Part shown: in pieces, positions 776 through 18,027 of the stretch
Layout of the letters: every line of letters starts with the position of its first letter
Position numbering within the stretch: the stretch's first letter is position 1
Source of the DNA: a virus
DNA length: 64,000 nt
Direction: 5' to 3' (one strand)
IMG/VR virus record: IMGVR_UViG_3300037201_000018
Coordinates: 1-64,000 of that record
Notes under the pieces: model-generated
What the model was told of the DNA's origin: nothing
Databases searched by the model: none
Seen by the model: only the letters and a program-made list of their open reading frames with translations
Translations under genes and position numbers: made by a program

Positions 776-3481
776 ATGACGGAAGGCAATGGAGACGATC
801 GAGGTAGATTAACAGCAAATGAAGAGCGCAAGCAGTTCCCCGAGGGGATGTATCCACAGCAACGGCTGACCCATGCCGAGGAGGACGCGCTCTGGTCCCA
901 CGTGATGGACTACGTCGAGAACGCGGGGATGGCACGCAACGACGGGCCGCAGCAGGGGTCGATCACCAGTCGCAACGAGCTGTTCCGAGCCTGGAGGCAC
1001 AACCCGCTCCGGCTGATCAGCGAGGAGTGCGGCTATCCGGACACGATGGCGATCGAGCCAGACACGTACCGGACGTTCTACGACCGTGAACCGATCGCGA
1101 CTCTGGTCTGTCAACTCTTACCGCGTGAGTCGTGGCAGGTATCTCCGCGGGTCTATGAGGACGAGGACCCGCAGAACGAGACCCCCTTCGAGAAGAGGTG
1201 GGCTGAAATCGACCGACTGCTTCACGGTCAGAGTTGGTATCGAGACATGAAGGGTTCCCAAATCTGGGAGCACCTGAGGAGGGCGGATGAGTTATCAGGG
1301 ATTGGTAGCTTCGGGGTTTTACTCATGGGATTCAATGATGGACGTCGGTTGGATGAACCTGTACCAGGGGCACTTGGGGGAGGTACGCAGTTCGACACTG
1401 GAGGCGAACCCCTTTCACGTGTTGGCGTCTACTCCGGCGAGAAGGAAGGTCCACAGAGCCAGTCACAAGGGGGTCCAGGCTCAGGCGTCAACTCGCACAA
1501 GATCGGGAACCTCGTCGAGCCAAACAAGCTGACGCAGGGTGGACTGCCGCAGTATCGCTATGACAGCCAGCTGTTGGGTACTGACGCGCAGTACGTCGGC
1601 GTTCAACTCAGTCATGACATCATTCCCCCGAAGGGGAAGGGACAACAACTCGACCTACTATTCTTGAGGGCCTTCGATGAAAGTCTCGTCCAGATCGTCC
1701 AGTATGAAGCTGACCTTCGCAATCCACGATTTGGTCTCCCTGTCATGTATCGTATTACTCTTAATGATCCGCGGGAGCTGCACTCGGGAATTGGATTACC
1801 TCTTGCTACCATTAGGGTGCATTGGAGCCGCGTCATCCATCTCGCCGATAATCTTGGATCTTCTGAGATCTTTGGCGTCCCCCGGATGCGACCGGTCTTC
1901 AACCGACTGATCGACCTCGCGAAGGTCTACGGAGCCAGTGCACAGGGGTACTGGTACGGCGCGTTCATGGGCCTAGCATTCACGACGCATCCCCAGCTAG
2001 GTGGTGACGTGAAGATCGACGTGGCTCAGATGCGGCAGCAGTCGAGGGACTACTTCAAGCGACTGAACCGGGCGATCACCGCCAGCGGGATGAACGTGCA
2101 GCCCCTCGCACCGCAGGTCAGCGATCCGACGGCACAGATCAAGGCACTCTTGGAGTGCATCGCGATGCAACTGAGAGTCCCCATGCGGGTCTTCATGGGA
2201 TCAGAACGAGGTGAACTCGCCAGCAGTCAAGACATGCAGGCCCACAATGGTAGACTCGCGTTTAGGCAGAACAACTACCTGACGCCGAGGGTCATCATAC
2301 CGTTTGTGGACCGGTTGATTTCGGTTGGCGTGCTACCCGAGCCGAACAGCAAGGTCCCAACAGCAAATAAACGGATGAGAAGGTCTCTCATTGCTAACAA
2401 GAGGTACGGCTGGTGGACGACGTACCAGAGGTGGTTGGAGGGCGGCAACTGCGGAGGATACGAGGTTCACGAGGCCGAGCGAATTACGGTGAATGTGGAG
2501 TCCAAGGCCGAGAAGCGGCAGCTGCTGTTGGGATTGAGCCAAGAGGCTGACGCGACTGATCTGTATCCTCAGCCCGAGGCTTACGGTGGCCTGATCGTCC
2601 TGAACGAGGCCCCTCCGCAGGACGCTACTCAAGGACAAGGGGAGACAGACGAGGACCAAGCGGAAGATCCCACATCTGATGACGATGAATCAGACTCTAC
2701 GACCGAGGAAGCTTCGGGTGGGTACGTCGTGGACTGGCCAGATATGGAGGCCCTAACGGACGCTGAGAAGGCGGCCATCGCCCAGCAGCTCTCCTCCGCG
2801 CTGGCGACCTATGTCCAGTCGGGTGCCGAGAACGTGTGTCCTCCCGCGATCTTCATGAGTGCGATCATGAGGCTGGACGAGGAGACGGCCAACATGATGA
2901 TCGATGCCGCGATGGAAGCCCTGGAAGACCCCTCTGACCGGCTGACCCCTGACCCGATGGACCAGAAGGAACGAGAGAAGGAGGCTCACGAGACAGACCA
3001 GCAAGGCCAGCAACAGGGTCAGGAGCAGCAGGCCGAGAGCCACGACCAGAACCTCCAGCAAGGTCAAGAAGCTCACGAGAAGGCCATGAGCGAACCACCG
3101 CCGGACGAGGCCGATGAGGAGCCACCTGGCAAGCCTACGAGCAACGCCGACCGATCCAAGGCCGAGGCGTTCATGAGGAAGTACATGGGAACCGTAACGG
3201 GCAACGAGAAGGATGCGCTGGGACATGGGTCTGATGCTAAAGGGGAACGATCGCTGATAAGGAAAGGTAAAAAAGAATCTAGGCAGCAGAAAAAGTCAGA
3301 CGAAATCCATCTCAAGAAGCTAGAAGGAAAGTCACCAGAGGAAGTCAATCAACTCATAGCGACTGACCACTACATTGGGGCAGCTATGAGTCGGCAGGGG
3401 ATGAAATCATCTGACTTCAAGAGTCCGCCCGCGGGACCGATGCCTCCGGGGAGCAGCGACAAGGAACAGACTGGGGCGTAG
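776..3481 (+). CDS. portal protein with long C-terminal extension
   Basis: Predicted dodecameric portal through which DNA is packaged. The core (about residues 60-560) has the look of DUF1073/phage_portal_3-type portals: a clip/stem-like region, then MRVPMRVFMGSERGEL near residue 470, the usual position of this loop before the C-terminal helices. At 901 residues it is much longer than a typical 450-550 residue portal. The extra part is acidic (residues 600-660), Gln/Glu-rich (about 730-780), then carries the peptide NEKDALGHGSD at residue 810 followed by a Lys-rich tail. The same peptide recurs in the prohead protein at 12150-16127, so this tail is probably an added module. Portal call is by recognition of family features, not alignment. 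Confidence 0.75.
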   Translation: MTEGNGDDRGRLTANEERKQFPEGMYPQQRLTHAEEDALWSHVMDYVENAGMARNDGPQQGSITSRNELFRAWRHNPLRLISEECGYPDTMAIEPDTYRTFYDREPIATLVCQLLPRESWQVSPRVYEDEDPQNETPFEKRWAEIDRLLHGQSWYRDMKGSQIWEHLRRADELSGIGSFGVLLMGFNDGRRLDEPVPGALGGGTQFDTGGEPLSRVGVYSGEKEGPQSQSQGGPGSGVNSHKIGNLVEPNKLTQGGLPQYRYDSQLLGTDAQYVGVQLSHDIIPPKGKGQQLDLLFLRAFDESLVQIVQYEADLRNPRFGLPVMYRITLNDPRELHSGIGLPLATIRVHWSRVIHLADNLGSSEIFGVPRMRPVFNRLIDLAKVYGASAQGYWYGAFMGLAFTTHPQLGGDVKIDVAQMRQQSRDYFKRLNRAITASGMNVQPLAPQVSDPTAQIKALLECIAMQLRVPMRVFMGSERGELASSQDMQAHNGRLAFRQNNYLTPRVIIPFVDRLISVGVLPEPNSKVPTANKRMRRSLIANKRYGWWTTYQRWLEGGNCGGYEVHEAERITVNVESKAEKRQLLLGLSQEADATDLYPQPEAYGGLIVLNEAPPQDATQGQGETDEDQAEDPTSDDDESDSTTEEASGGYVVDWPDMEALTDAEKAAIAQQLSSALATYVQSGAENVCPPAIFMSAIMRLDEETANMMIDAAMEALEDPSDRLTPDPMDQKEREKEAHETDQQGQQQGQEQQAESHDQNLQQGQEAHEKAMSEPPPDEADEEPPGKPTSNADRSKAEAFMRKYMGTVTGNEKDALGHGSDAKGERSLIRKGKKESRQQKKSDEIHLKKLEGKSPEEVNQLIATDHYIGAAMSRQGMKSSDFKSPPAGPMPPGSSDKEQTGA

Positions 3482-3739: not shown

Positions 3740-4126
3740 ATGAACAAAGAGAAAGCGATTGCTTATCTGAGGAACTGGAGGAATAGCGGCCCTGGGAATT
3801 GTTCAAACCTATTGCCATTGATCATTGACTTACTACTGGAAGGCCAATCAGAACCGACCAAGCCGCAGACCTACGGTGAGAAGATCGCTGAGGAGAGGAT
3901 CACAGTGGGCGAGACGAGTAACTACGCTCGACTGACAAGCAAAGACGAAACCTTCGACGTTTGTTCTACATCCATGAGAAACGGATTGGATAGCAAGTTG
4001 AAATCATTCTTCTCATTGGATAGCAAGTTGAAATCATTCTTCTCAGCTGCACTCGACGAGGCGTTCGAGGCAGAGAAAGCTGCTGGAGTGAGCGAGTACA
4101 TTACAAGTCGAGAGAGACCAGAGTGA
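3740..4126 (+). CDS. hypothetical protein with internal tandem duplication
   Basis: A 128-residue soluble protein with a conventional start and a GTGA overlap with the next gene. A 10-residue unit (LDSKLKSFFS) occurs twice in tandem because of a perfect 30-base duplication. The C-terminus (AALDEAFEAEKAAG) is predicted helical. No family recognised. Confidence 0.65.
   Translation: MNKEKAIAYLRNWRNSGPGNCSNLLPLIIDLLLEGQSEPTKPQTYGEKIAEERITVGETSNYARLTSKDETFDVCSTSMRNGLDSKLKSFFSLDSKLKSFFSAALDEAFEAEKAAGVSEYITSRERPE
3986..4045 (+). repeat. perfect 30-bp tandem duplication
   Basis: Two identical in-frame 30-base copies (3986-4015 and 4016-4045), each beginning TTGGATAGCAAG. No mismatch separates them, so the duplication is recent or error-prone at this spot. 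It lengthens the protein by ten residues without breaking the frame. Confidence 0.95.
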
Positions 4127-4881
4127 TCAAGCGAACCCATACACCTAGTAAGTGTCCGCTCTCCCGAGAGGAGGAGAATCAGCTCGTGGAAGCCGCGAAG
4201 GGCGGGGACGCGGTTGCCTTCGACCGGCTGTGGGAGACGTTCAAGTACATGGGCTTGAGGGTCGTGATCGCGAGGTGTCGCTTCGGGTTTACCAACGACG
4301 AGCGGGATCAGGTGATCAGGATCAGTCTGTGGGACGCTGTGAGGAAGTTCGACCCTTCCCGCAGGATCAGGTTCGGGACCTATGTGTTCAACTGGTTCAG
4401 GCAGGGAGCGAACAGGCTGTTGGACAACGAGGGATGTCGTATCATCAGAGTCCCGCGGACCCAAGCGACGACGACTTCGAGGACAGGATGCAAGCGGAAG
4501 TATCTGGATAGAACAACAGACGCCAAGCGGAGGATGCGGGAGGCCGCGATCTTCAGCTTGAGTACCGAGGCGAAGAGCGGAAGACCGAGACACGAAGGCG
4601 TCTCCAGCAGAGATCAGCTTGAAGTCTGGGAAGAGGTAGACACCAAGCTAGAAGTCGAAGCGACTCATGCACGATTGCGGCTAGTTCTCAGCGAACGATC
4701 GGTGAGCATCCTGGAACGTCGAGCTAGTGGGATGACGTTGAGGGCGATAGCGGAGTCTGAGGGAATAACCCACGAGCGAGTTAAGCAGATCCAGGTCAAC
4801 GCGATCATCAAGTTGCAACGGAGGTATCCAAGTCTCCTGCGTTGTACGAGTCGTAGGAACAGCTCAAGGAGGGCAGTATGA
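4123..4881 (+). CDS. sigma-70 family RNA polymerase sigma factor-like protein
   Basis: 252 residues starting at a GTG that overlaps the upstream TGA. Region 2-like part at about residues 20-105: AFDRLWETFKYMG, then AVRKFDPSRRIRFGTYVFNWFRQGANRLL, matching the helix that binds core polymerase and melts the -10 element. Region 4-like helix-turn-helix at about 190-235: LSERSVSILERRASG then AIAESEGITHERVKQIQ. Family knowledge: such proteins redirect host polymerase to specific promoters. The segment between the regions is Arg/Thr-rich and diverged. It probably drives a class of phage promoters; its location inside the head-gene run is unusual. Confidence 0.8.
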   Translation: MIKRTHTPSKCPLSREEENQLVEAAKGGDAVAFDRLWETFKYMGLRVVIARCRFGFTNDERDQVIRISLWDAVRKFDPSRRIRFGTYVFNWFRQGANRLLDNEGCRIIRVPRTQATTTSRTGCKRKYLDRTTDAKRRMREAAIFSLSTEAKSGRPRHEGVSSRDQLEVWEEVDTKLEVEATHARLRLVLSERSVSILERRASGMTLRAIAESEGITHERVKQIQVNAIIKLQRRYPSLLRCTSRRNSSRRAV

Positions 4882-6691: not shown

Positions 6692-6909
6692 TGAACTCGA
6701 TCAAGCTGCACCCCGACCACTGGGACGACTTCCGATTGAGGGAGTTCTCGGAAGCGATCGACGTTCACAACCGACGGTTCAGAGTCGGTAACGCTCAGAG
6801 CGAAGAGTCGATCACGGCTGAGGAACACGAGGAGCGAGAGAGTCGCATCCCACTGTACGCCGAGAGAGCTAAGGAACGTCTCAACCTGTTCACGGGGAAG
6901 GGTAACTGA
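6691..6909 (+). CDS. hypothetical protein, 72 aa, charged
   Basis: Two ATG codons occur in a row; the site TTGGAGA upstream suits either. Strongly charged and helical (EEHEERESRIPLYAERAKERL), a likely coiled coil. Its TGA overlaps the ATG of the giant MuF protein, so translation of the two is probably coupled. Confidence 0.55.
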   Translation: MNSIKLHPDHWDDFRLREFSEAIDVHNRRFRVGNAQSEESITAEEHEERESRIPLYAERAKERLNLFTGKGN

Positions 6910-9900
6910 TGCTCCTGAAGCCTAAGATGAGGAAGCTCCCCAAGCGGACGAAGGCCGTGTCCAAGAGGCGAAAGATGATCGCGAGGAAGGAACTCGCGGT
7001 CCGCAACGCTTTCTGTCCAACCGGCGAAGGTGGAGGCCAGGACAACAGCTGTTCGTCCCACGGCAAGTTTGAACTTGGGAAAGGGATTGATCTTCCAAAT
7101 AAACCGCTAGAAAAAGCGATTAGTAATCCGAAGCGACTTCCGAAAGAAGTCGGTGGCCATCGGGTAGTCTACCTGGAAGAGATGAACAACGAGGGTCGAG
7201 CGGACCCAGATGGAACTATCAAAGTCGGCCCGAAGTTCTTCAAGCTGGACGTCGACCAGCAGAATCACGTCTTGATTCACGAGTGGGTCCATCAGAAGAA
7301 CATTGAGACGTCGGTGATGATGGACAACGAGTTCTGGGATCGACTACGCAGCGGAAAGATGTGGGGCAAGCCGGAGGGCGAGTACAATGTCGTCTGGGGA
7401 CCAGGAGGCAACACCCCAAATGAGAATATCGTTGAGACGACGATCGCGATGGTCACTGAGCCAGGCTGGGTGAAGGAGAAGTATTCTGGCGCGTACGACT
7501 ACTTTAGTAAGAAAGTCTTCAGAAATGGTGGACGAGATCTTCAATCTGAGAACCGGGGAGTGGCTAATCTATCTGGGCGAGTCAAAGATAACATCTCTCA
7601 TCGCGGCTCACGCCCAGTCGCTGCGGGATTACAACACCTGGGACTATCGAGCAAAATACCGCTATCTGGTAGTGAGCAACAAGCTGACTCTAAGGTGCGG
7701 GGACTTCGCCATATTCAAAAGAAGCCGACCGTCAACGCCTTTTGTCCGACTGGAGAAGGGGGAGGTCAGGATAATTCCTGCTCGTCCCACGGTGGAGGAT
7801 CGAAGGTAATTGAGACTCCTGAGTTCAAGAAGTGGTTTGGAGACTCGAAGGTCGTCGACGCTCAAGGCAAGCCGGCTGTTGTGTGGCACTCATCTGAAGC
7901 ATTTTTTACTGCGTTTGATCCCGCAAAAATTGGGAGTGGATTCAAGGAGGGGTACGACGGAATTAGAGTGATCGGTAAAGACGGTCAGACGATGGAGTAC
8001 GTCGCCTTTCATCCGACGCAGATTAAGTCAACAGAGAATCGAGGAACGTTCGACGCTAAAGACCCAATCATCACGAACCGCAAGCGTCTAGCGACCGTCA
8101 ATGCCAAGCGAAATCCGCTCAAAGCCGACCCAACCAGAACGGCGTCTCTCCGCAGGAGGTTCATCGCGGACCTCACCCGTAGGTTCAACATCCTCAAGCG
8201 GCGGATCTACAAGCTGATCGTCGAGGAGGACGCCTTCGGACTCAAGTCGAGCAACCACAATCCGTTTACAGCGAACGCTAATTTTTCCAGTACGCAGGTC
8301 AACGTCGACGATGCCTTCGTCGAGCAGCAGATCAAGAGGATTCAGGCGGCGATTAACCCTTCAGACATCGTCGAGCTGGAGGACGAGCCGCACGTCACGG
8401 TTCGATACGGTCTGCACGATCAGGACTCGGCGAGGGTCGAGAAGCTGCTGAGTGAGTGTGGGCCGATCTACGCGAGACTCGGACGGCTATCCCTCTTCAA
8501 GTCGCCAGAGCAGGACGTTCTGAAGATCGACGTCCGCAGCAACCAGATGGACGGACTCAACCGGCGACTGAAGCTACTCCCGAATACCGAGACGTTCCGT
8601 GAGTACCATCCCCACCTCACGATCGCCTACCTCAAGCCAGGGACCGGACAGAAGTACCTTGACATCCCGACCCAGCTCGAACACAGCAAACTGTTGTTCA
8701 AGTCGCTGGTGTTCTCCAACAAGGACCGCGAGAAGACTGAGCTGATGCTGACGGCGAACGCTTTTTGTCCTACCGGACCGGGAGGTGGGATAGATCCGAC
8801 GTGTTCATTGTCCCCACAGGAGGCAAGTTCGTTAATCTCAAAGATTCGCGGGGGTGACGAGCGGTCTAAAAATAAGGGAGACATACGACCAGAACAGATC
8901 AACAAGTCACAAGTAATTCGGCAAGTTCCGCTCAAGTCAATTCCGCAATCGATTATCGAGTCGCTACGAGAATCCACAGATCGAGCGAGAGTCGCAAAGT
9001 ACGCAACCCAGAAGATCGACACACCTGTGGTCTTAGTCCCCCTCAGAAAGACAAGCGGGTTTGGAGTTTCTGACGGGGGACATCGGATACTTGCGGCGAT
9101 CGAACGGGGCGACACTCACATCAACGCGATCATTCCGGCAGACTCTCAAGATAGATTAACAGCGAATACTCGCTTCAAGTTTCACACGACGAGCGAGCAG
9201 GTCGAGGCTTTTCGCCAGTGGTTGGCCCAGCAGACGCAGTACCTGATCCTCGGAACCTCGCTGCGGGAGATCGAGGACGCTTGGTGGAAGCAGTACGTCA
9301 TGGAGGGTTATGAGAAAGGTGCTGGAAGAGCCTTCTCAGACGTCCGCAAGCCAAAGACGAGCGACAATGTGAAGTTGGACTTCTTCAACGGCACGAAGGA
9401 TCAGTTTCTGCGAGAGTCGTTTGCCCACCCCGTCTCAGTCGACAAGGTCAAGCTGCTGAGTGGGAGGGTCTACACCGAGCTGAAGGGCGTGACGGAGGCG
9501 ATGAGTCAGAACCTCGTGAGGACCTTGACCGATGGGCTGGTCCAGGGAGACTCACCGAGAGAGATCGCGAGGGACATCAACGAGCGAGTCGACGGGATCG
9601 GCAGGCAAAGGGCGGACGTCATCGCGAGAACTGAAATAATCAGAGCCCACGCGGACGGACAGCTGAACGCTCTCCGCGATCTCGGTGTTGAGCAGGTGGG
9701 CGTCCTTGTGGAATTTTCAAGTACGCAGGACGATCTTGTTTGTCCTGAATGTGAGGCGTTGGAAGGGATCGTAATCACGATCGACGAGGCGGAAGGTCAA
9801 ATCCCAGTTCATCCGCAGTGTCGTTGTGCTTGGATTCCTGCGAATGTCGGCGAGGACGAGAAGGATCAGGTTAGGGGCAAGGAGGACGTCGACGACGCGA

Positions 9901-11333
9901 TCGAGGAGGCCAATGACTTGGGGGCAGACATCGACTCGAAGATCAGCAAAGAGCGACCAGAGAGCATTCTGAACTTCGATCCTGACGAGGCTCGTGACGA
10001 GAAGGGAGAGTGGACAAGTGGCGGAGGAACTTCAGAAGGTAAGCCAGAATCTTACAAGGACATTAAAAAGCGGATAATGAAAGAGTGGCCGAGGGCGGGC
10101 AAGATGGTTGGCGGTCTTCGAGCGTTGCGAGGAGTCCCAGTACCGAATACTGATTCGATCAGTGCCTCGATGACAGACTACGAGGAGTTGCCCGGAATCC
10201 GTGAGGTTCCCCTCTCGGCTTTCAAGGGCCTCGGTAATAAGTCGTACTCCACGGAGCGAGATGAGAAGGTAGACAAGCTCGCGGCTAGAATCAAGAAGTC
10301 TGGTAAGATCGTCCCCCTAATCGTCGTCTACGATAAGCATCCTGACAACCCGAGTTACATTCTGGAAGGAGGGCATCGCTCTGACGCACTGGCGAGACTC
10401 GGAGTGAAGTCGCTGCCGGCCCTCGTCGTACTGGATCGTGGAGCGATACGCGAGCACTCTAAGAAAGCCTCTACAAAGAACTCTGAAAGTATTCTCAACC
10501 GAATTTGGAACGCCTTGAGAGGGAAGAGGACCGATAACGCATTTTGTCCCACAGGGCTTGGAGGAGGCGTCGACGATTCGTGCTCGCCTGGGGGCGGGCC
10601 AAGTGGGATTGACATCGGTAAGTTAGGAACTACGCCGCACGACGAATGGAAGAACCTCAAGGGCGACTCCAAGTTCATCTACCACGCAACGAATCTGGAC
10701 AACCTACACGACATTAGTCAGGGTAAACTGGAGCCGCACAAGCCCAGCTTCGGGACTGACCAAAGAGAATGGCCTGACGGGTCTCGTGAGAAGCGGAGCT
10801 ACTTTAGCCACGAGCCTTCCATTGCTTGGCAGTTCGCCCCCGAAGAAGGAAAGCCAGTATTGCTGAGGATTCCCCGCGGTCCGAAACTGAAACAAGAGTC
10901 GACGGGGGACTACTACACAACGGCACACGTCGGGCGGGAGAAGGTTGAAGTTTCTACGAAGAATGGCTGGGTTAATCTGTCAAGTGGCCAAATGACTGAA
11001 AATGCAGAAGTGATGAACGTAGCGACTGTGAACCTGTTCGTGTATGGGACGTTCAAGGATGCAGGCACGCTCGACCGAGTCGCTGGTCGTGACGTCTCTC
11101 GTGAAGAGGCGACGCTGGATGGCTACCGACACGATACGGGTACTGACGGTTACAGCTACCTCCGACGAGATCCCTCCGCGTCGGTCCCCGGCTTCCTCGT
11201 CCGTCTGACCCCGCAGGAGCTACAGAAGACTGATCGCTGGGAAACTCGTTACGAACGGGAGTGGGTTACTCTCAAAGATGGGACTCGTGCCTGGGCCTAC
11301 TTCATCGACCCAAAGGACGTAGACAAGTCGTGA
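6909..11333 (+). CDS. MuF-type head protein with multiple effector domain cassettes
   Basis: 1474 residues, against about 250-500 for a plain MuF protein, which is packaged in the head and can be ejected with DNA. Modules: zincin (HEWVH, residues 124-128); ADP-ribosyltransferase-like segment (300-394, WFGDSKVVDAQG to NRGTFDAKDP, shorter than usual); 2H phosphoesterase (about 464-612, H495-x-T and H569-x-T); ParB-like (about 674-748, GGHR 723-726); MuF core (about 823-976, ending CPECEALEG and HPQCRCAW); a second ParB-like module (GGHR 1154-1157); a second ART-like module (FIYHATNLDNL, about 1256); and a gamma-glutamylcyclotransferase-like C-terminus (LFVYGTFKD, Tyr at 1379). The peptide NAFCPTGxGGGxD(x)SCS precedes modules at residues 33, 276, 617 and 1210. 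Domain calls are by motif; effector role is inferred. Confidence 0.85.
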   Translation: MLLKPKMRKLPKRTKAVSKRRKMIARKELAVRNAFCPTGEGGGQDNSCSSHGKFELGKGIDLPNKPLEKAISNPKRLPKEVGGHRVVYLEEMNNEGRADPDGTIKVGPKFFKLDVDQQNHVLIHEWVHQKNIETSVMMDNEFWDRLRSGKMWGKPEGEYNVVWGPGGNTPNENIVETTIAMVTEPGWVKEKYSGAYDYFSKKVFRNGGRDLQSENRGVANLSGRVKDNISHRGSRPVAAGLQHLGLSSKIPLSGSEQQADSKVRGLRHIQKKPTVNAFCPTGEGGGQDNSCSSHGGGSKVIETPEFKKWFGDSKVVDAQGKPAVVWHSSEAFFTAFDPAKIGSGFKEGYDGIRVIGKDGQTMEYVAFHPTQIKSTENRGTFDAKDPIITNRKRLATVNAKRNPLKADPTRTASLRRRFIADLTRRFNILKRRIYKLIVEEDAFGLKSSNHNPFTANANFSSTQVNVDDAFVEQQIKRIQAAINPSDIVELEDEPHVTVRYGLHDQDSARVEKLLSECGPIYARLGRLSLFKSPEQDVLKIDVRSNQMDGLNRRLKLLPNTETFREYHPHLTIAYLKPGTGQKYLDIPTQLEHSKLLFKSLVFSNKDREKTELMLTANAFCPTGPGGGIDPTCSLSPQEASSLISKIRGGDERSKNKGDIRPEQINKSQVIRQVPLKSIPQSIIESLRESTDRARVAKYATQKIDTPVVLVPLRKTSGFGVSDGGHRILAAIERGDTHINAIIPADSQDRLTANTRFKFHTTSEQVEAFRQWLAQQTQYLILGTSLREIEDAWWKQYVMEGYEKGAGRAFSDVRKPKTSDNVKLDFFNGTKDQFLRESFAHPVSVDKVKLLSGRVYTELKGVTEAMSQNLVRTLTDGLVQGDSPREIARDINERVDGIGRQRADVIARTEIIRAHADGQLNALRDLGVEQVGVLVEFSSTQDDLVCPECEALEGIVITIDEAEGQIPVHPQCRCAWIPANVGEDEKDQVRGKEDVDDAIEEANDLGADIDSKISKERPESILNFDPDEARDEKGEWTSGGGTSEGKPESYKDIKKRIMKEWPRAGKMVGGLRALRGVPVPNTDSISASMTDYEELPGIREVPLSAFKGLGNKSYSTERDEKVDKLAARIKKSGKIVPLIVVYDKHPDNPSYILEGGHRSDALARLGVKSLPALVVLDRGAIREHSKKASTKNSESILNRIWNALRGKRTDNAFCPTGLGGGVDDSCSPGGGPSGIDIGKLGTTPHDEWKNLKGDSKFIYHATNLDNLHDISQGKLEPHKPSFGTDQREWPDGSREKRSYFSHEPSIAWQFAPEEGKPVLLRIPRGPKLKQESTGDYYTTAHVGREKVEVSTKNGWVNLSSGQMTENAEVMNVATVNLFVYGTFKDAGTLDRVAGRDVSREEATLDGYRHDTGTDGYSYLRRDPSASVPGFLVRLTPQELQKTDRWETRYEREWVTLKDGTRAWAYFIDPKDVDKS
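7005..7064 (+). repeat. junction peptide copy 1 (NAFCPTG type)
   Basis: Encodes NAFCPTGEGGGQDNSCSSHG immediately before the zincin module. The same 20 residues recur at 7734-7793, yet 12 of 20 codons differ synonymously, so selection holds the peptide and not the DNA. Its two cysteines could pair or bind metal. Confidence 0.9.
7525..7809 (+). pseudogene. out-of-frame cassette: possible embedded small phage gene
   Basis: In the +1 frame relative to the MuF gene, an ATG-started 94-residue reading has natural composition: EIFNLRTGEWLIYLGES, AAHAQSLRDYNTWDYRAKY and LRCGDFAIFK. NTWDY followed by CGDF is reminiscent of small phage proteins I have seen, though I cannot name a family. The MuF frame over the same bases is Arg/Ser/Gly/Gln-rich and looks like a shadow. 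After about 7720 the situation reverses and the MuF frame carries the junction peptide. Either a cassette was inserted out of frame, or a small gene is overprinted. No strong ribosome site precedes the ATG. Confidence 0.5.
7734..7793 (+). repeat. junction peptide copy 2 (NAFCPTG type)
   Basis: Identical in amino acids to copy 1 but different at 12 codons. It lies between the out-of-frame segment and the ADP-ribosyltransferase-like module. Confidence 0.9.
8757..8813 (+). repeat. junction peptide copy 3 (NAFCPTG type)
   Basis: Encodes NAFCPTGPGGGIDPTCSLS, a diverged copy with the Cys, Gly and Asp positions kept. It follows the 2H phosphoesterase module and precedes the first ParB-like module. 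Confidence 0.9.
9963..10028 (+). repeat. second class of junction peptide (RDEKGEWTSGGG)
   Basis: Encodes NFDPDEARDEKGEWTSGGG just after the MuF core and before the second ParB-like module. A motif of the form RDxxGRFTSGGG is often seen at domain joints in phage head proteins (recalled, not checked). Confidence 0.6.
10536..10598 (+). repeat. junction peptide copy 4 (NAFCPTG type)
   Basis: Encodes NAFCPTGLGGGVDDSCSPGG between the second ParB-like module and the second ART-like module. Cys, Gly and Asp positions match the other copies. Confidence 0.9.
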
Positions 11334-12149: not shown

Positions 12150-15100
12150 ATGAGCACCTCGACAAAGCTCGGCAGTGCCAAATCTCTCGTCGCCAATCAT
12201 CGGCAGACAGAAACTCATCCAGTCTTCCAAGAGATCGTCGCCAACCTCTCAACGGGGAAGGTCAGACGCGAGCGACTCGATGGTAATACTTACCTCGTCG
12301 CTCACGCCACGATCCTGAAGCAGGGAGTTCTGAACGGCAGCAAGGGTGCGCTGTTCTACCCCGACTCCGAGATCGCGAAGAACTACAGGGATTGGGACGG
12401 GGTCCTCCTAACTCTGTACCACCCGATGGCCGCCAACGGCGAGCACCTCTCCGCCAACCATCCCGGCGTCTCTGACCGTCAGGGAATCGGCTTCGTTAAG
12501 CGACCGAGACTCGAAGGCAAGCTGAGGGTCAACGCCTTCTTCGACGAGACCAAGCTGACTCAGATGGCCAAGTCAAATACAGAAGCGAGGAGAGTCTTGA
12601 ACGCTCTCGAAAACGGCGAGCCCCTCGAACTCTCAACTGGGTTGTTCACCGAGAACGAGAAGGCAGCGGTCGGTTCGAACTATCGCGGCAAGCCCTACGA
12701 GTTCGTCGCCCGCAATTACACCCCGGACCACGTGGCTGTCCTTCCGGGTCAGGTCGGTGCGTGCTCGAACAACGACGGCTGCGGAATCCTGGTGAACAGC
12801 AGCAGCCAAGTCCAAACTGAACTCGACCTCCTCGTCAACGGTGGACCCGGTTCTGGCCCACGACCCGGAGTCAAATTCGTTCAAAGAAAAAATCCCTCAT
12901 TTAGTAGGCCAGAAACCCACGTTGCAAAAACTGACAAAGGAACATACTCGATCACACCAACAGAGAGCGGACATCATTTAACCTATGAAACTGGAAGACA
13001 AAGAGAAAATTGGACAGTAGGCCAATCTACTTTCAAATCTCTTGGAGTACATCCAACTGTCGACGCAGCTAAGTCTGCCGCTGATTCACACTACTCCTCT
13101 CCAGCAAATAATTCTTCCTATCTACTTGTCAACGCTAAGAAGGAAAGAGACATGGGACCGGAGGACGACGAGGATGAGGAAGACGACGACGAGGTGACCG
13201 ACAACGAGCCAGAGACGGTCGAGGGGATGGAGGACGAGGAAGCTGGCGGGGGTGACGTCCCTACGCCAACCGGCAACCAGGAGCGGAAGCGAACCTTCCG
13301 AGGCTGGCTGGGTGAGCTGCTGAAGATCGCCAACGATCCTAACTACGAGCCAACGAACAACGGAGGCCCAGGTAGTGGCCCGCAAGGCGGTGGTAGTAGT
13401 CCTAAGAAATTCGATGAGATTAGAGAAGAACACGTAGCTCCAATCATCGAGCATCTACGAGCAGGCAGAAACTCAGAAGCACAGTCTCATATGGATGCCC
13501 TGCTAAAAGGAGTAAAGGCGAAGGATTGGGAAGCTCGATTGTTAGCTGAAAAGGTCAAAGAAAAAGCTGGAGTAAAACAACAAACACGAGCCGAAAGAAA
13601 AGCTGCGGCTAAAGAGATCACAGGAAATACGTGTGGAAAATGCGGGGGAACTGGAATTGTAACGAAATGGTTTGGCGAACCTCCTCGCACTGGAGCTACG
13701 ACTAGTTGCGGAAGATGTGGAGGTAACGGTAAAAGTTTACTACATAACCGTAAGTTCGCGAGACTGCTGGAAGCGACGTATAACGCTCGGTGGCCGGAGG
13801 AACGTAAGCAGCAGACCCAGCAGCGAGACTTCGCCGGACGTTACCCCATCGCCAACCAAGCGGACCTCGACGCCGTCTGCTACTTGGTCGAGAACGGTGG
13901 ACCTGGAAGTGGGCCACACGCTGGGGGCGGATCTGCGGCGAGACAGGCTTCTGAAAACGCTTCTACAAAGACGGCAGAAGCTGGAAAGAATTATGGGTCG
14001 AGTAATTATTTCAAAATGATGGCTCAACGAGCTGTGGATCATGCAAACCAGGGAAATCACACAGCGGCTGCGAAAGAGCACACGAAACTTGCAGCTGACC
14101 ACCGAGACTCTGCGAAGTTGTATCCAGGTATTTCATTAAGCCATTTGGCAGCTGCGAAAGCGCATGAGACGGCAGCTACTGCTCATTTGGCAATGACCCA
14201 TAACCGCGACATCTCGCAAAAAACTCGCGACAAGATGCCCGAGTCGGACTTCGCTGGAAGCGGTACTTCGTTCCCGATCAAGACCCAGGCCGACGTCGAG
14301 GCCGCTGCCCACTCGCTCGGAAGGACGGGTCAGGACCGAGACAAGATCAAGTCGAGGATCAAGTCGATCGCCAAGCGGAAAGGACTGACGCTACCTGACT
14401 CGATGAAGGACGACGAGAAACCTGCTGACAACGAAGACCTGAACCTGAAGGTCGACGGTATTGGCCTCGACCAGAACAAGCCAGCGCTGAAGAACGCCTC
14501 AAAGGCCGCGAAGGGGAGTTTCAGACCGATGGGAAGCAGCTACCTTTCAAGCAACACGACGAGCGGCAAGCAGATGAGCCACGACGAGATCCGCGGGCAC
14601 CTTCAGAAGGGCCTTGATCAGTCCTCGACTCACGACGAACCCCAGCCCCTGATCCACTCAGTCTACGACGACCACTGCGTCTACTCGAAGGGGGGTGATC
14701 TCTTCAAGCAGGGCTACACGAAGTCCAAGACGAGCGACGGTAGGCAAGTAGCTGAACTCGATAAGGAAGAGCCTGAGAAGGTTCTCAAGGGCGAGTCGAT
14801 CTATCCAGATGACGTCGACACTTCGGCGAAGTATCACGGACAGAAGCTAACCTCCGACAACCCAACTGCGAACGAAAAAGATGCTCTTGGTCATGGATCA
14901 GATAAGCGAGGGCAGGAGGGTAAAAGTTCCTTACCTAACCGAGCTAAGGACGCCAGTTCAAGCGCCGAAGCAATGAGTGGTCTGGCAGGGTCGATGACTG
15001 ACCGATTGAAGGGCGCTGTCGCTGAGGCGAGAGGACATGCTACGAACGCACTGGCTGCTGCGGGAAAAGGAGAGCACGGATCAGCGGCCGGATTCCATAT

Positions 15101-16127
15101 GAAAGCGGCAGAGAGACACTACGCTCTGGCGACCCATCCTGACAACGAAGGAACGTACTTCGCTAACGCCAATATGAAGGCTTCAGACGCGCACGATGCA
15201 GCGGCCAAGTTGCAAATGCAGATGCAACGTCGGGGTGGCATTAAAAAATCTACCAACAATTCCATGTTCCGTAAGGAGATCACGATGAGGAAGTTCACTG
15301 CGGACGAGAGGGATCTGCTCACGGAGCAACTCGTCGCGAACTGTGACTGCGAAGACCGAGCCGAGGAAGTTCAGAACGAACTGAACGAGCTTTCCGACGA
15401 GGCGTTCGGCCTCGTGGCCAACTCGATCACATCGAATGTGACGCCGGGTGGGACGAGGGTCGGCGATGGCAAGAAGATGATCCCTGCCTCCAAGGGTGGA
15501 GGCGACACGGGTTCGTATCCTTCGAGCGGTGTGAAGGGGGGTAATCAAGACGCGGACGCTGATGGAGACCCGCAGAAGGGGACGGCAGCTGCGAAAGCAG
15601 GATTGGGGGTTCATACGGAAGGCAAGTCACCACGCAAGACGGGGAAGCAAGTCATGGGCATCGAGGACGTCACGACCGACAACCAGCTCAGCTGGGAGGA
15701 GTGGGTCGCCAGCCCTGAGTTCAAGAGCCTGCCGAAGATCGTGCAGAACACGCACCTTCAGTCGAAGAGATGGTGGGATGATCAAAAATCATCGCTGATC
15801 AATCAGCTCGTCTCGAACATGGAAGGCGACGAGCGGAAGCAGCGGGAGACGTTCTACGGGGCGATGGAGCCGGACGCGCTCCAGACGATCCTCGAAGACC
15901 GCGAACGATCGACTCCGACTCGTAACGTCCGAGTTCACGTCCCGCCGGTCCCGAACTACGTCGGTGCAGCCGGTGGTCCCTCGGCGGGAATTGGTGGCTC
16001 CGGAAACCGTCAACTGTCTACCAAGGACATGGACGCTGACCAGCTCCTGCCGCCAACTGTGAACTGGTCGAAGGTCAGCGAGGAGAACGCCAAGCACTTC
16101 GCCAAGAGCAAGGTGTCGGCCAGCTAG
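12150..16127 (+). CDS. modular prohead protease/scaffold-like protein (DUF2213 type)
   Basis: 1325 residues, several times the usual size. Residues 1-225 look like a DUF2213 head maturation protein (WDGVLLTLYHPMAANGEHLS, PLELSTGLFTEN, YTPDHVAVLPGQVGAC). After that come modules introduced by NGGPGSGP at residues 230, 404 and 582: a beta domain, a zinc-ribbon-like domain (CGKCGGTG and CGRCGGNG, like DnaJ zinc repeats), and an Ala/His-rich helical domain. About 700-760 carries DFAGSGTSFPIKTQADVEAA, a DUF6582-like stretch. NEKDALGHGSD at residue 908 introduces another Ala/His-rich helical module. The last 280 residues resemble a normal scaffold C-terminus before the capsid. Function by family and position; catalytic residues not assigned. 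Confidence 0.75.
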   Translation: MSTSTKLGSAKSLVANHRQTETHPVFQEIVANLSTGKVRRERLDGNTYLVAHATILKQGVLNGSKGALFYPDSEIAKNYRDWDGVLLTLYHPMAANGEHLSANHPGVSDRQGIGFVKRPRLEGKLRVNAFFDETKLTQMAKSNTEARRVLNALENGEPLELSTGLFTENEKAAVGSNYRGKPYEFVARNYTPDHVAVLPGQVGACSNNDGCGILVNSSSQVQTELDLLVNGGPGSGPRPGVKFVQRKNPSFSRPETHVAKTDKGTYSITPTESGHHLTYETGRQRENWTVGQSTFKSLGVHPTVDAAKSAADSHYSSPANNSSYLLVNAKKERDMGPEDDEDEEDDDEVTDNEPETVEGMEDEEAGGGDVPTPTGNQERKRTFRGWLGELLKIANDPNYEPTNNGGPGSGPQGGGSSPKKFDEIREEHVAPIIEHLRAGRNSEAQSHMDALLKGVKAKDWEARLLAEKVKEKAGVKQQTRAERKAAAKEITGNTCGKCGGTGIVTKWFGEPPRTGATTSCGRCGGNGKSLLHNRKFARLLEATYNARWPEERKQQTQQRDFAGRYPIANQADLDAVCYLVENGGPGSGPHAGGGSAARQASENASTKTAEAGKNYGSSNYFKMMAQRAVDHANQGNHTAAAKEHTKLAADHRDSAKLYPGISLSHLAAAKAHETAATAHLAMTHNRDISQKTRDKMPESDFAGSGTSFPIKTQADVEAAAHSLGRTGQDRDKIKSRIKSIAKRKGLTLPDSMKDDEKPADNEDLNLKVDGIGLDQNKPALKNASKAAKGSFRPMGSSYLSSNTTSGKQMSHDEIRGHLQKGLDQSSTHDEPQPLIHSVYDDHCVYSKGGDLFKQGYTKSKTSDGRQVAELDKEEPEKVLKGESIYPDDVDTSAKYHGQKLTSDNPTANEKDALGHGSDKRGQEGKSSLPNRAKDASSSAEAMSGLAGSMTDRLKGAVAEARGHATNALAAAGKGEHGSAAGFHMKAAERHYALATHPDNEGTYFANANMKASDAHDAAAKLQMQMQRRGGIKKSTNNSMFRKEITMRKFTADERDLLTEQLVANCDCEDRAEEVQNELNELSDEAFGLVANSITSNVTPGGTRVGDGKKMIPASKGGGDTGSYPSSGVKGGNQDADADGDPQKGTAAAKAGLGVHTEGKSPRKTGKQVMGIEDVTTDNQLSWEEWVASPEFKSLPKIVQNTHLQSKRWWDDQKSSLINQLVSNMEGDERKQRETFYGAMEPDALQTILEDRERSTPTRNVRVHVPPVPNYVGAAGGPSAGIGGSGNRQLSTKDMDADQLLPPTVNWSKVSEENAKHFAKSKVSAS
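12837..12869 (+). repeat. junction peptide NGGPGSGP copy 1
   Basis: Encodes NGGPGSGPRPG at residue 230 of the prohead protein, at the end of the DUF2213-like domain. Copies 2 and 3 start at 13359 and 13893; their codons differ. Confidence 0.85.
13359..13391 (+). repeat. junction peptide NGGPGSGP copy 2
   Basis: Encodes NGGPGSGPQGG at residue 404, just before the helical and zinc-ribbon-like module. Confidence 0.85.
13893..13925 (+). repeat. junction peptide NGGPGSGP copy 3
   Basis: Encodes NGGPGSGPHAG at residue 582, before an Ala/His-rich helical module (AVDHANQGNHTAAAKEHTKL). Confidence 0.85.
14871..14903 (+). repeat. junction peptide NEKDALGHGSD shared with the portal
   Basis: Encodes NEKDALGHGSD at residue 908. 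The same 11 residues occur in the portal at 3203-3235, but 7 of the 11 codons differ synonymously. Confidence 0.85.
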
Positions 16128-16779: not shown

Positions 16780-18027
16780 ATGGCTCAAGACTTCATTCTC
16801 AACGGCTCTGGGTACGGACCCGTGGCCGAGGCGCTGGTCAGTGACGGACTGGACGTCGGTCTTCGTCGTCCGTTCAAGGTGACGAATCCCCGCAGTCCGA
16901 ACTACGGCAAGACGTGCGTCACGGTCAACACCGGGCGCAGGCGGGAGGTGACTGACAATCAAGGTCAGCTGGTCTACAACGAACTAGGATTGCCGACGAC
17001 CCAGGCAGTCATGGAGACGGTTCGAGTCAGTGACCTGATCGCCAACGGTGACGGCCTGCCGGTGCCCGTCACGAACGCGACGACTCTCCGAAAAGAAGAG
17101 TGGATCGAGCTGGACCAGGTGATCCTGCGTGAAGCGAGATACCGTCTTCGGGCCTGGGCTGACCTGGCCAATGCGAACTCGTTCGGCGGGTTCAACGGGA
17201 TGTCAAAGCTGATCCTCGAACACGAGACGATGAGCGACCCTGGAGCCGCGGTCCAGGACATGGATGGCATCTCTCCGGCCTTCGCTGACAGTCCGCTGTT
17301 CCAGCTCCAGGGCCTGCCGCTGCCGATCACGCACGCGGACTTCTGGTTCCCCAGTCGGCGACTCTCAATTTCGCGGAACACGGGCACCCCGCTGGACACC
17401 GTGATGGGTGAGGCGGCTGGACGGAGAGTCGCGGAACTCATCGAGCAGACCCTGATCGGCACGATCTCGGGGATCACGCTGGGCAGTCCTTCGGGATGGA
17501 CTCCCGCCTACGGTCGTGCGAACTCGGTCTACGGCTATACGAACTTCCCACCAGCCCTGACCTACACGGGATCGGTTCCTACGGCTGGCGGATATACCGC
17601 GTCGAAGACCCTGGCCGACGTCCTCTCCATGATCGACGTCCTCACGGCCAACAAGTTCTACGGTCCCTTCATGCTGTATCACACAGGCAACTGGGACCAC
17701 GTCCTGGACAACGACTACATTCTCACCGGCGGCAACGTGGCAACTCAGACGCTGCGAAATCGCTTGCGAAGTATCGAAATCATCCAGGACGTTCGCCGCT
17801 TGGACTTCTTCCTGGACAACACCTACAACACCGGGCCGTTCAAGATGCTGCTTGTGCAGATGACCCCGGACGTGGCCCGCGCCGTCAACGGAATGGACAT
17901 CACGACCGTCCAGTGGGAGGCGATGGGTGGCATGAAGCTGAACTTCAAGGTCATGGCGATCCAGGTTCCCCAGCTCCGTGCGACCTTTGCTGGGAATTGC
18001 GGAATTTTGTACGCACAATTCGCATAG
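16780..18027 (+). CDS. major capsid protein
   Basis: 415 residues, AAGGGAG upstream. Helical segment KEEWIELDQVILREARYRLRAW followed by NSFGGFNGMSKL and SRRLSISRNTGTPLDT is typical of encapsulin-like/HK97-fold capsid proteins of the DUF6260 kind, and the C-terminal part (VARAVNGMDITTVQWEAMGG) fits the A-domain. It follows prohead and decoration genes and precedes connector genes. No delta domain is visible at the N-terminus, consistent with a separate scaffold. Fold call by pattern; the role is well supported by context. Confidence 0.8.
   Translation: MAQDFILNGSGYGPVAEALVSDGLDVGLRRPFKVTNPRSPNYGKTCVTVNTGRRREVTDNQGQLVYNELGLPTTQAVMETVRVSDLIANGDGLPVPVTNATTLRKEEWIELDQVILREARYRLRAWADLANANSFGGFNGMSKLILEHETMSDPGAAVQDMDGISPAFADSPLFQLQGLPLPITHADFWFPSRRLSISRNTGTPLDTVMGEAAGRRVAELIEQTLIGTISGITLGSPSGWTPAYGRANSVYGYTNFPPALTYTGSVPTAGGYTASKTLADVLSMIDVLTANKFYGPFMLYHTGNWDHVLDNDYILTGGNVATQTLRNRLRSIEIIQDVRRLDFFLDNTYNTGPFKMLLVQMTPDVARAVNGMDITTVQWEAMGGMKLNFKVMAIQVPQLRATFAGNCGILYAQFA

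Follow-up and report, generated by a model that had tools for sequence, protein, structure and literature searches.

The head genes in a 64,000-nucleotide stretch of viral DNA (positions 1 to 64,000 of the 94,383-base IMG/VR virus record IMGVR_UViG_3300037201_000018; hereafter the window) encode a prohead protein, a portal protein and a MuF-type protein in which short conserved peptides recur at module boundaries. We propose, with a probability of about 0.84, that the prohead maturation protease encoded by the phage itself cuts at each of these junctions, and that the conserved leader behind each cut would become the new N-terminus of the released module. The proposal was reached by comparing sequences, among them the residues just upstream of the peptides with the presumed maturation site of the capsid protein in the same phage, and by predicting the fold of the protease.

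Junction peptides and the residue that precedes them

The initial annotation had reported NGGPGSGP three times in the prohead protein (1325 amino acids (aa), open reading frame (ORF) 12150-16127) and NEKDALGHGSD in both the prohead protein and the portal protein (ORF 776-3481). These positions hold (Table 1), as do the synonymous differences at 7 of the 11 codons of the shared peptide, a codon choice that shows conservation at the protein level. Copies of NGGPGSGP differ from one another at 4 to 6 of 8 codons and, because their flanks are unrelated (0-1 of 15 residues identical upstream and 2-5 of 40 downstream), the peptides are short conserved islands and not segmental duplications. Divergent codons and flanks likewise led us to reject a DNA-level recombination site.

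We surveyed about 70 phage contigs, which yielded 170 distinct junctions and included 47 contigs with two or more of them (L and G numbers below are our own handles). P1 denotes the residue directly before the peptide and P3 the residue two further upstream; the scans left the preceding residue free, so that P1 could vary, and many matches from an unrelated glycosyltransferase-like family (...FFHKIPKSAW) were removed from the first NGGPGSGP scan. The earlier suggestion that each of the three head proteins uses a separate peptide type did not survive this survey. GGPGSGP is carried by prohead proteins (window, L109, L111), a portal protein (L005), an XkdF-type protease ORF (L151) and small standalone ORFs (L142, L155), and FCPTGPGGG by the MuF-type ORF of the window and by portal and S78-protease ORFs in L158; since the same class sits on several carriers, binding of a peptide to one carrier is ruled out. 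MuF-type ORFs bearing junctions are found in the window, L124 and L171, and further peptides occupy the same kind of boundary in relatives (FCPTGPGGGxDPTCS, NPNQPRDxxGRW, NPEGHNQ, N[TA]W[TS]DEARE and GGPGSGNFGHxGRPGEVGGS). The claim that each peptide introduces a new module was borne out, as the sequence after the peptide varies from copy to copy. The portal protein of L005 (1226-6247, minus strand) has six GGPGSGP-led modules in a chain, including three ADP-ribosyltransferase stretches; in L151 (1-2415, plus strand), K-GGPGSGP junctions lead Nudix and methyltransferase domains that are joined to the protease ORF; and the standalone ORFs consist of a short N-terminal stretch, then P1, then GGPGSGP. 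As for the view of the peptides as cassette-accepting elements, they do mark boundaries, but what all classes have in common is the preceding residue, not the peptide.

Depending on the phage, the residue in front of GGPGSGP is N, K, D, L or E, and the one standing two positions before FCPTG is R, N or K, which rules out Asn as a mere part of the peptide. P1 was identical in 199 of 212 within-contig junction pairs (10,000 shuffles: mean 69, maximum 99) and fully concordant in 45 of the 47 contigs with two or more junctions. P3 was identical in 49% of within-contig pairs vs. 18% after shuffling, while P2, P4 and P5 were near background (15/8.5, 9/7 and 7.5/6.7%, observed/shuffled). Further, unrelated leader classes within one phage have P1 in common. 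In N-type phages P3 is T, V, L, A, S or I in 74 of 89 cases, and all ten junctions of the window, together with the capsid site, fit [TVLI]xN, with P about 7e-5 when compared with the residues around Asn in these proteins. Across the head ORFs of the window [TVLASI]xN is about two-fold enriched over shuffles, which lends weak support as the Asn context there is generally hydrophobic. Cumulatively, these comparisons suggest that the preceding residue follows the phage's own maturation protease, constant within a phage and different between phages.

The capsid protein and the prohead protease

If the junctions are maturation sites, then their motif must recur at the propeptide boundary of that phage's capsid protein. 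P1 and P3 match the presumed capsid maturation site of the same phage for four specificities, [TVLI]xN (window), ExR, xxK and Rx[LA], and the T4-like LxE fits one further peptide. In the model of the window's capsid protein (ORF 16780-18027), residues 97-99 align with residues 5-8 of several encapsulins, close to the beginning of that chain, and residues 92-101 of the model have low confidence, as expected of an exposed linker. In all 17 junction-bearing N-type contigs read, N/A (once N/D; a slash marks the predicted cut) lies at the start of the conserved fold. R-type contigs combine Peptidase_S78 with an HK97-type capsid protein that has [ED]xR/A about ten residues before a conserved GG (14 contigs read), and their junctions are mostly ExR/[AG]. 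For the six K-type contigs, the capsid sites are EQK/[AS] (five) and WHK/T (one), and the junctions are xxK/[AS]. The L-type (contig G039 and two relatives) has a DUF6260-type capsid protein with RAL/SPLS or RTL/SPLS and 25 junctions, mostly Rx[LA]/GG; here Leu replaces the otherwise invariant Asn of the DUF6260 capsid family, precisely where the junctions also switch to Leu.

T4-like contigs with KDALGHGSD have LNE/A in gp23, and the peptide follows MKSFLTYLKE (MKSFLTYLKE/EKDALGHGSD), which in L081-L105 resembles the ten-residue T4 capsid targeting sequence (CTS) and fits L/I-X-E. By their sequence, these CTS-like proteins probably form a class of T4-like head proteins that are injected. By eye, their body after KDALGHGSD has KxDG nucleotidyltransferase/RNA-ligase-like motifs, and in L095 (2486-3694) the same peptide stands ahead of a different, nucleotidyltransferase-like protein.

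The candidate protease occupies the front of the prohead protein. An AlphaFold model of aa 1-240, built from 19 homologues, had a mean predicted local distance difference test (pLDDT) score of 85, with values of at least 90 across most of the domain. Its best solved Foldseek match was T4 gp21 (5jbl, probability 1.0), and VIA-align gave Z 11.8 over 139 aa against T4 gp21, with herpesvirus proteases next at Z about 6-8. The sequence matched PHROG 760 (E 2e-27) and fell short of the curated cut-off of Pfam DUF2213 (PF09979; 19.6 bits vs. 22); we label it DUF2213-like because its PHROG 760 relatives and its fold resemble DUF2213. H91, S162 and D193-H194 are invariant across 19 protease sequences and may be the catalytic residues. 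The model thus predicts that the carrier begins with a T4-gp21-like prohead protease. A scan of genome contigs found the protease at only two loci, both in planctomycete metagenome-assembled genomes (L404, L405; Pirellulales and Planctomycetota) and both devoid of junctions, which hints at the group to which the host belongs. Short tblastn queries, which are insensitive, turned up no cultured phage bearing these junctions, and the sole class-C match, MW091528, was without any ORF containing the motif.

From these observations we infer the following course of events. The prohead, portal and MuF-type proteins would serve as head-targeted polyprotein carriers, structural proteins to which strings of cargo modules are joined and with which they enter the procapsid. 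The gp21-type protease would then cut after Asn at each junction, at [TVLI]-x-N/, and the capsid protein at N99; the freed modules would stay in the head and presumably leave it together with the DNA at ejection. Cassettes of leader and module may move between phages and between carriers, with the residues just upstream kept or re-acquired to suit the local protease and the leader independent of protease specificity. Since the same leader stands behind at least four specificities, we take it to be part of the travelling cassette and not to be read by one protease. It may act as a passive, exposed spacer or as a signal after the cut; the likelier role is that of a disordered N-terminus, rich in Gly and Pro, which would leave the bond accessible and give flexibility to the freed module.

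Alternative explanations and known systems

The Gly/Pro/Ser-rich composition of the peptides, and the occurrence of one peptide before different modules, would also suit recombination junctions that accept cassettes, or inert flexible linkers, with no cutting at all. We consider this very unlikely: the codon differences given above leave little DNA homology for recombination, and linkers predict neither a phage-specific P1 and P3 outside the peptide nor a match to the capsid site. That P1 concordance reflects shared ancestry only, with junctions copied in a lineage along with the upstream residue, is a thought encouraged by the relatedness of the R-type contigs and by the joint travel of P1 and leader variants (NAFCPTG..DPTCS vs. 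ERRGFCPTG..DNSCG). However, ancestry would not single out P1 and P3 among the upstream positions, nor give unrelated leader classes in one phage the same P1, nor make the capsid protein, which is no cassette, switch along with the junctions, and we find this explanation scarcely credible.

Compatible with cleavage is the idea that the leader itself is a functional signal, for scaffold or portal binding during packaging or for ejection in the tail, which the cut mainly exposes. Conservation of leaders across these specificities, implying selection that is not protease-driven, and the design of the standalone small ORFs speak for such a signal; in T4, however, targeting information precedes the cleavage site (PMC9026906), and in our phage head targeting is already supplied by the carrier in front of the leader, so that we think this role rather unlikely. 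A broader proposal, which we offer tentatively and at somewhat less than even odds, is a phage-wide cargo grammar in which carriers receive leader-led cassettes traded among unrelated phages and fitted at P3 and P1 only, the leaders acting as retention or ejection signals after the cut.

Several observations weigh against cutting by the phage's own maturation protease. L005 has D at five junctions and N at the first, and both K and R occur at P1 on the contig of L160/L163/L227. Outside this phage, class-B junctions vary at the position where P1 would be expected, which makes the placement of the cut ambiguous; a fixed P1 for this class across phages is not supported. The R-type contigs are related to each other, and hence within-contig pairs are not independent. 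Protease specificity does not explain why leaders are conserved. No matched capsid site accompanies the D-type (L005), E-type (L155) and XkdF K-type (L151) junctions; the capsid maturation sites were themselves deduced from sequence; and the invariance of N99 could be partly structural. The portal ORF also holds a degenerate QGGPGSGV (1466-1486), overlooked in the initial annotation and without a preceding Asn, at which no cut would be expected by the Asn rule and which is perhaps a relic.

Part of this picture is already known, namely packaged, protease-processed cargo in T4 and effector fusions to MuF, portal and protease proteins. T4 gp21 reads its substrates as L/I-X-E, a P3-x-P1 pattern (PMC9026906), and a site of this form is also reported for SPN3US gp245 (PMC10052503). 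T4 internal head proteins with a CTS resemble our modules as head-packaged, ejected cargo with a P3-x-P1 site of a gp21-fold protease, and KDALGHGSD likewise follows a propeptide-like sequence in L081-L105 (PMC9026906). T4 cargo, however, consists of single proteins with a short N-terminal propeptide, whereas the window has many serial modules on portal, MuF and protease carriers, with P1 Asn and leaders after the cut. Compared with the T4 CTS, an N-terminal propeptide of about ten residues ending in L/I-X-E, the window junctions differ in being internal and in having Asn at P1, while the class-E proteins of L081-L105 do fit that description. The head and inner-body proteins of phiKZ and SPN3US (gp175/gp245) similarly undergo many cuts by a gp21-related protease at short Glu-ending motifs, portal included, but there the cuts take off long propeptides, most of which exit the head, and the available part of PMC10052503 describes neither repeated leaders nor effector modules that can be exchanged. 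MuF and portal carriers fused to effectors (ADP-ribosyltransferase, 2H phosphoesterase and others), and thought to be packaged and injected, are known from MuF polymorphic toxins (PMC5576092) and polyvalent proteins (PMC5512222). These papers describe the fusions; release by a prohead protease at shared junctions would be the new element here. Text searches found no mention of linkers, cleavage or a conserved motif in PMC5576092 and none of linkers in PMC5512222, which does discuss how the metallopeptidase domain of P1 DdrB processes this protein. A Nudix domain fused to a capsid-processing serine peptidase (PMC9503650) places a cargo domain on a head protease, as in L151, but the available part of that paper gives no cleavage-site rule. 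In the literature searched, the peptide strings had no match and serial module arrays with leaders common to several proteases were not described; what we propose as new is the rule that ties the junctions and the protease to the capsid site, together with the arrangement of modules in series and open to exchange.

Organization of the carriers

Relatives of the prohead carrier have a conserved N-terminal protease, often an SHDEI-type core and a conserved C-terminal scaffold-like part, with inserted material mostly between the two ends; L118, L120, L122, L123 and L125-L127 have little or none. The SHDEI domain was seen by eye in L115, L117, L118, L120 and L121 (phmmer for L115, 2.6e-11). Modules resembling module 3 by eye follow GGPGSGP in L006, L111 and L155, although module 3 had no significant phmmer match. 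The FPI module (module 4) matched L115, L399, L192 and L264 by phmmer, none with a junction within 60 aa upstream, and so a module can indeed occur in relatives without a peptide directly before it.

Table 1. Junctions, domains and modules of the head proteins in the window (slash, predicted cut)
Feature	Position	Strand	Basis or remark
Portal junction, VTGN/EKDALGHGSD (aa 810)	3203..3235	+	then 81-aa tail (3236-3478)
MuF-ORF junction, AVRN/AFCPTGEGGG	7005..7037	+	
MuF-ORF junction, PTVN/AFCPTGEGGG	7734..7766	+	
MuF-ORF junction, LTAN/AFCPTGPGGG	8757..8789	+	
MuF-ORF class-B junction, SILN/FDPDEARDEKGEW	9972..10013	+	overlooked in the initial annotation
MuF-ORF junction, RTDN/AFCPTGLGGG	10536..10568	+	
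Prohead protease domain (aa 38-216), T4 gp21/herpes-assemblin fold	12261..12797	+	AlphaFold model, Foldseek, VIA-align, PHROG 760
Junction 1, LLVN/GGPGSGPRPG (aa 230)	12837..12860	+	prohead ORF; predicted P1 Asn 12837-12839
Module 1 (aa 238-330)	12861..13139	+	lies between junctions; no family match
Junction 2, PTNN/GGPGSGPQGGG (aa 404)	13359..13382	+	prohead ORF
Module 2 (aa 412-581)	13383..13892	+	DnaJ-like CxxCxGxG zinc-ribbon aa 490-529, weak (PF00684 E 0.0097, under Pfam cut-off)
Junction 3, LVEN/GGPGSGPHAGGG (aa 582)	13893..13916	+	prohead ORF
Module 3 (aa 590-697), Ala/His-rich helical (AxxHxxAA)	13917..14240	+	sequence
Module 4 (aa 698-745), FAG..FPI.....A...G, without own junction	14241..14384	+	phmmer
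Core SHDEI domain (aa 818-895)	14601..14834	+	same place in insertion-free relatives
Junction 4, PTAN/EKDALGHGSD (aa 908)	14871..14903	+	prohead ORF
Module 5 (aa 919-1055), second Ala/His-rich helical module	14904..15314	+	sequence
C-terminal scaffold-like region (aa 1056-1325)	15315..16124	+	kept in insertion-free relatives; L110 8e-08
Predicted P1 Asn (aa 99) of major capsid protein, PVTN/ATTLRKEEW	17074..17076	+	invariant in 19 relatives; model alignment

The MuF-type ORF (6909-11333) matches PF04233 (8.5e-14), GGACT (3e-12) and 2_5_RNA_ligase2 (3e-7), and so combines a MuF domain with variable effector domains as MuF polymorphic toxins do; as in polyvalent proteins, its sequence points to several effector domains in one protein, with a presumed virion location. 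Its ART-PolyVal match is barely above the cut-off (31.7 vs. 31.2 bits) and covers only the last quarter of the family (profile 105-140 of 140, at 7944-8051), a partial ADP-ribosyltransferase; behind it comes a 2H phosphoesterase that weakly resembles Acb1. An ORF that looks sigma-factor-like by eye (4123-4881) sits between the genes for the portal and MuF proteins, unusual within a head cassette.

If our reading is true, a phage genome alone would predict the specificity of the maturation protease and the capsid cleavage site, as well as the boundaries of every packaged effector module, unannotated ones included. It would explain how large multi-domain head proteins could pass the narrow portal, as small pieces, and would allow a systematic listing of injected phage effectors. 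Unexplained repeats would thereby become a readable rule, testable by N-terminomics of virions.
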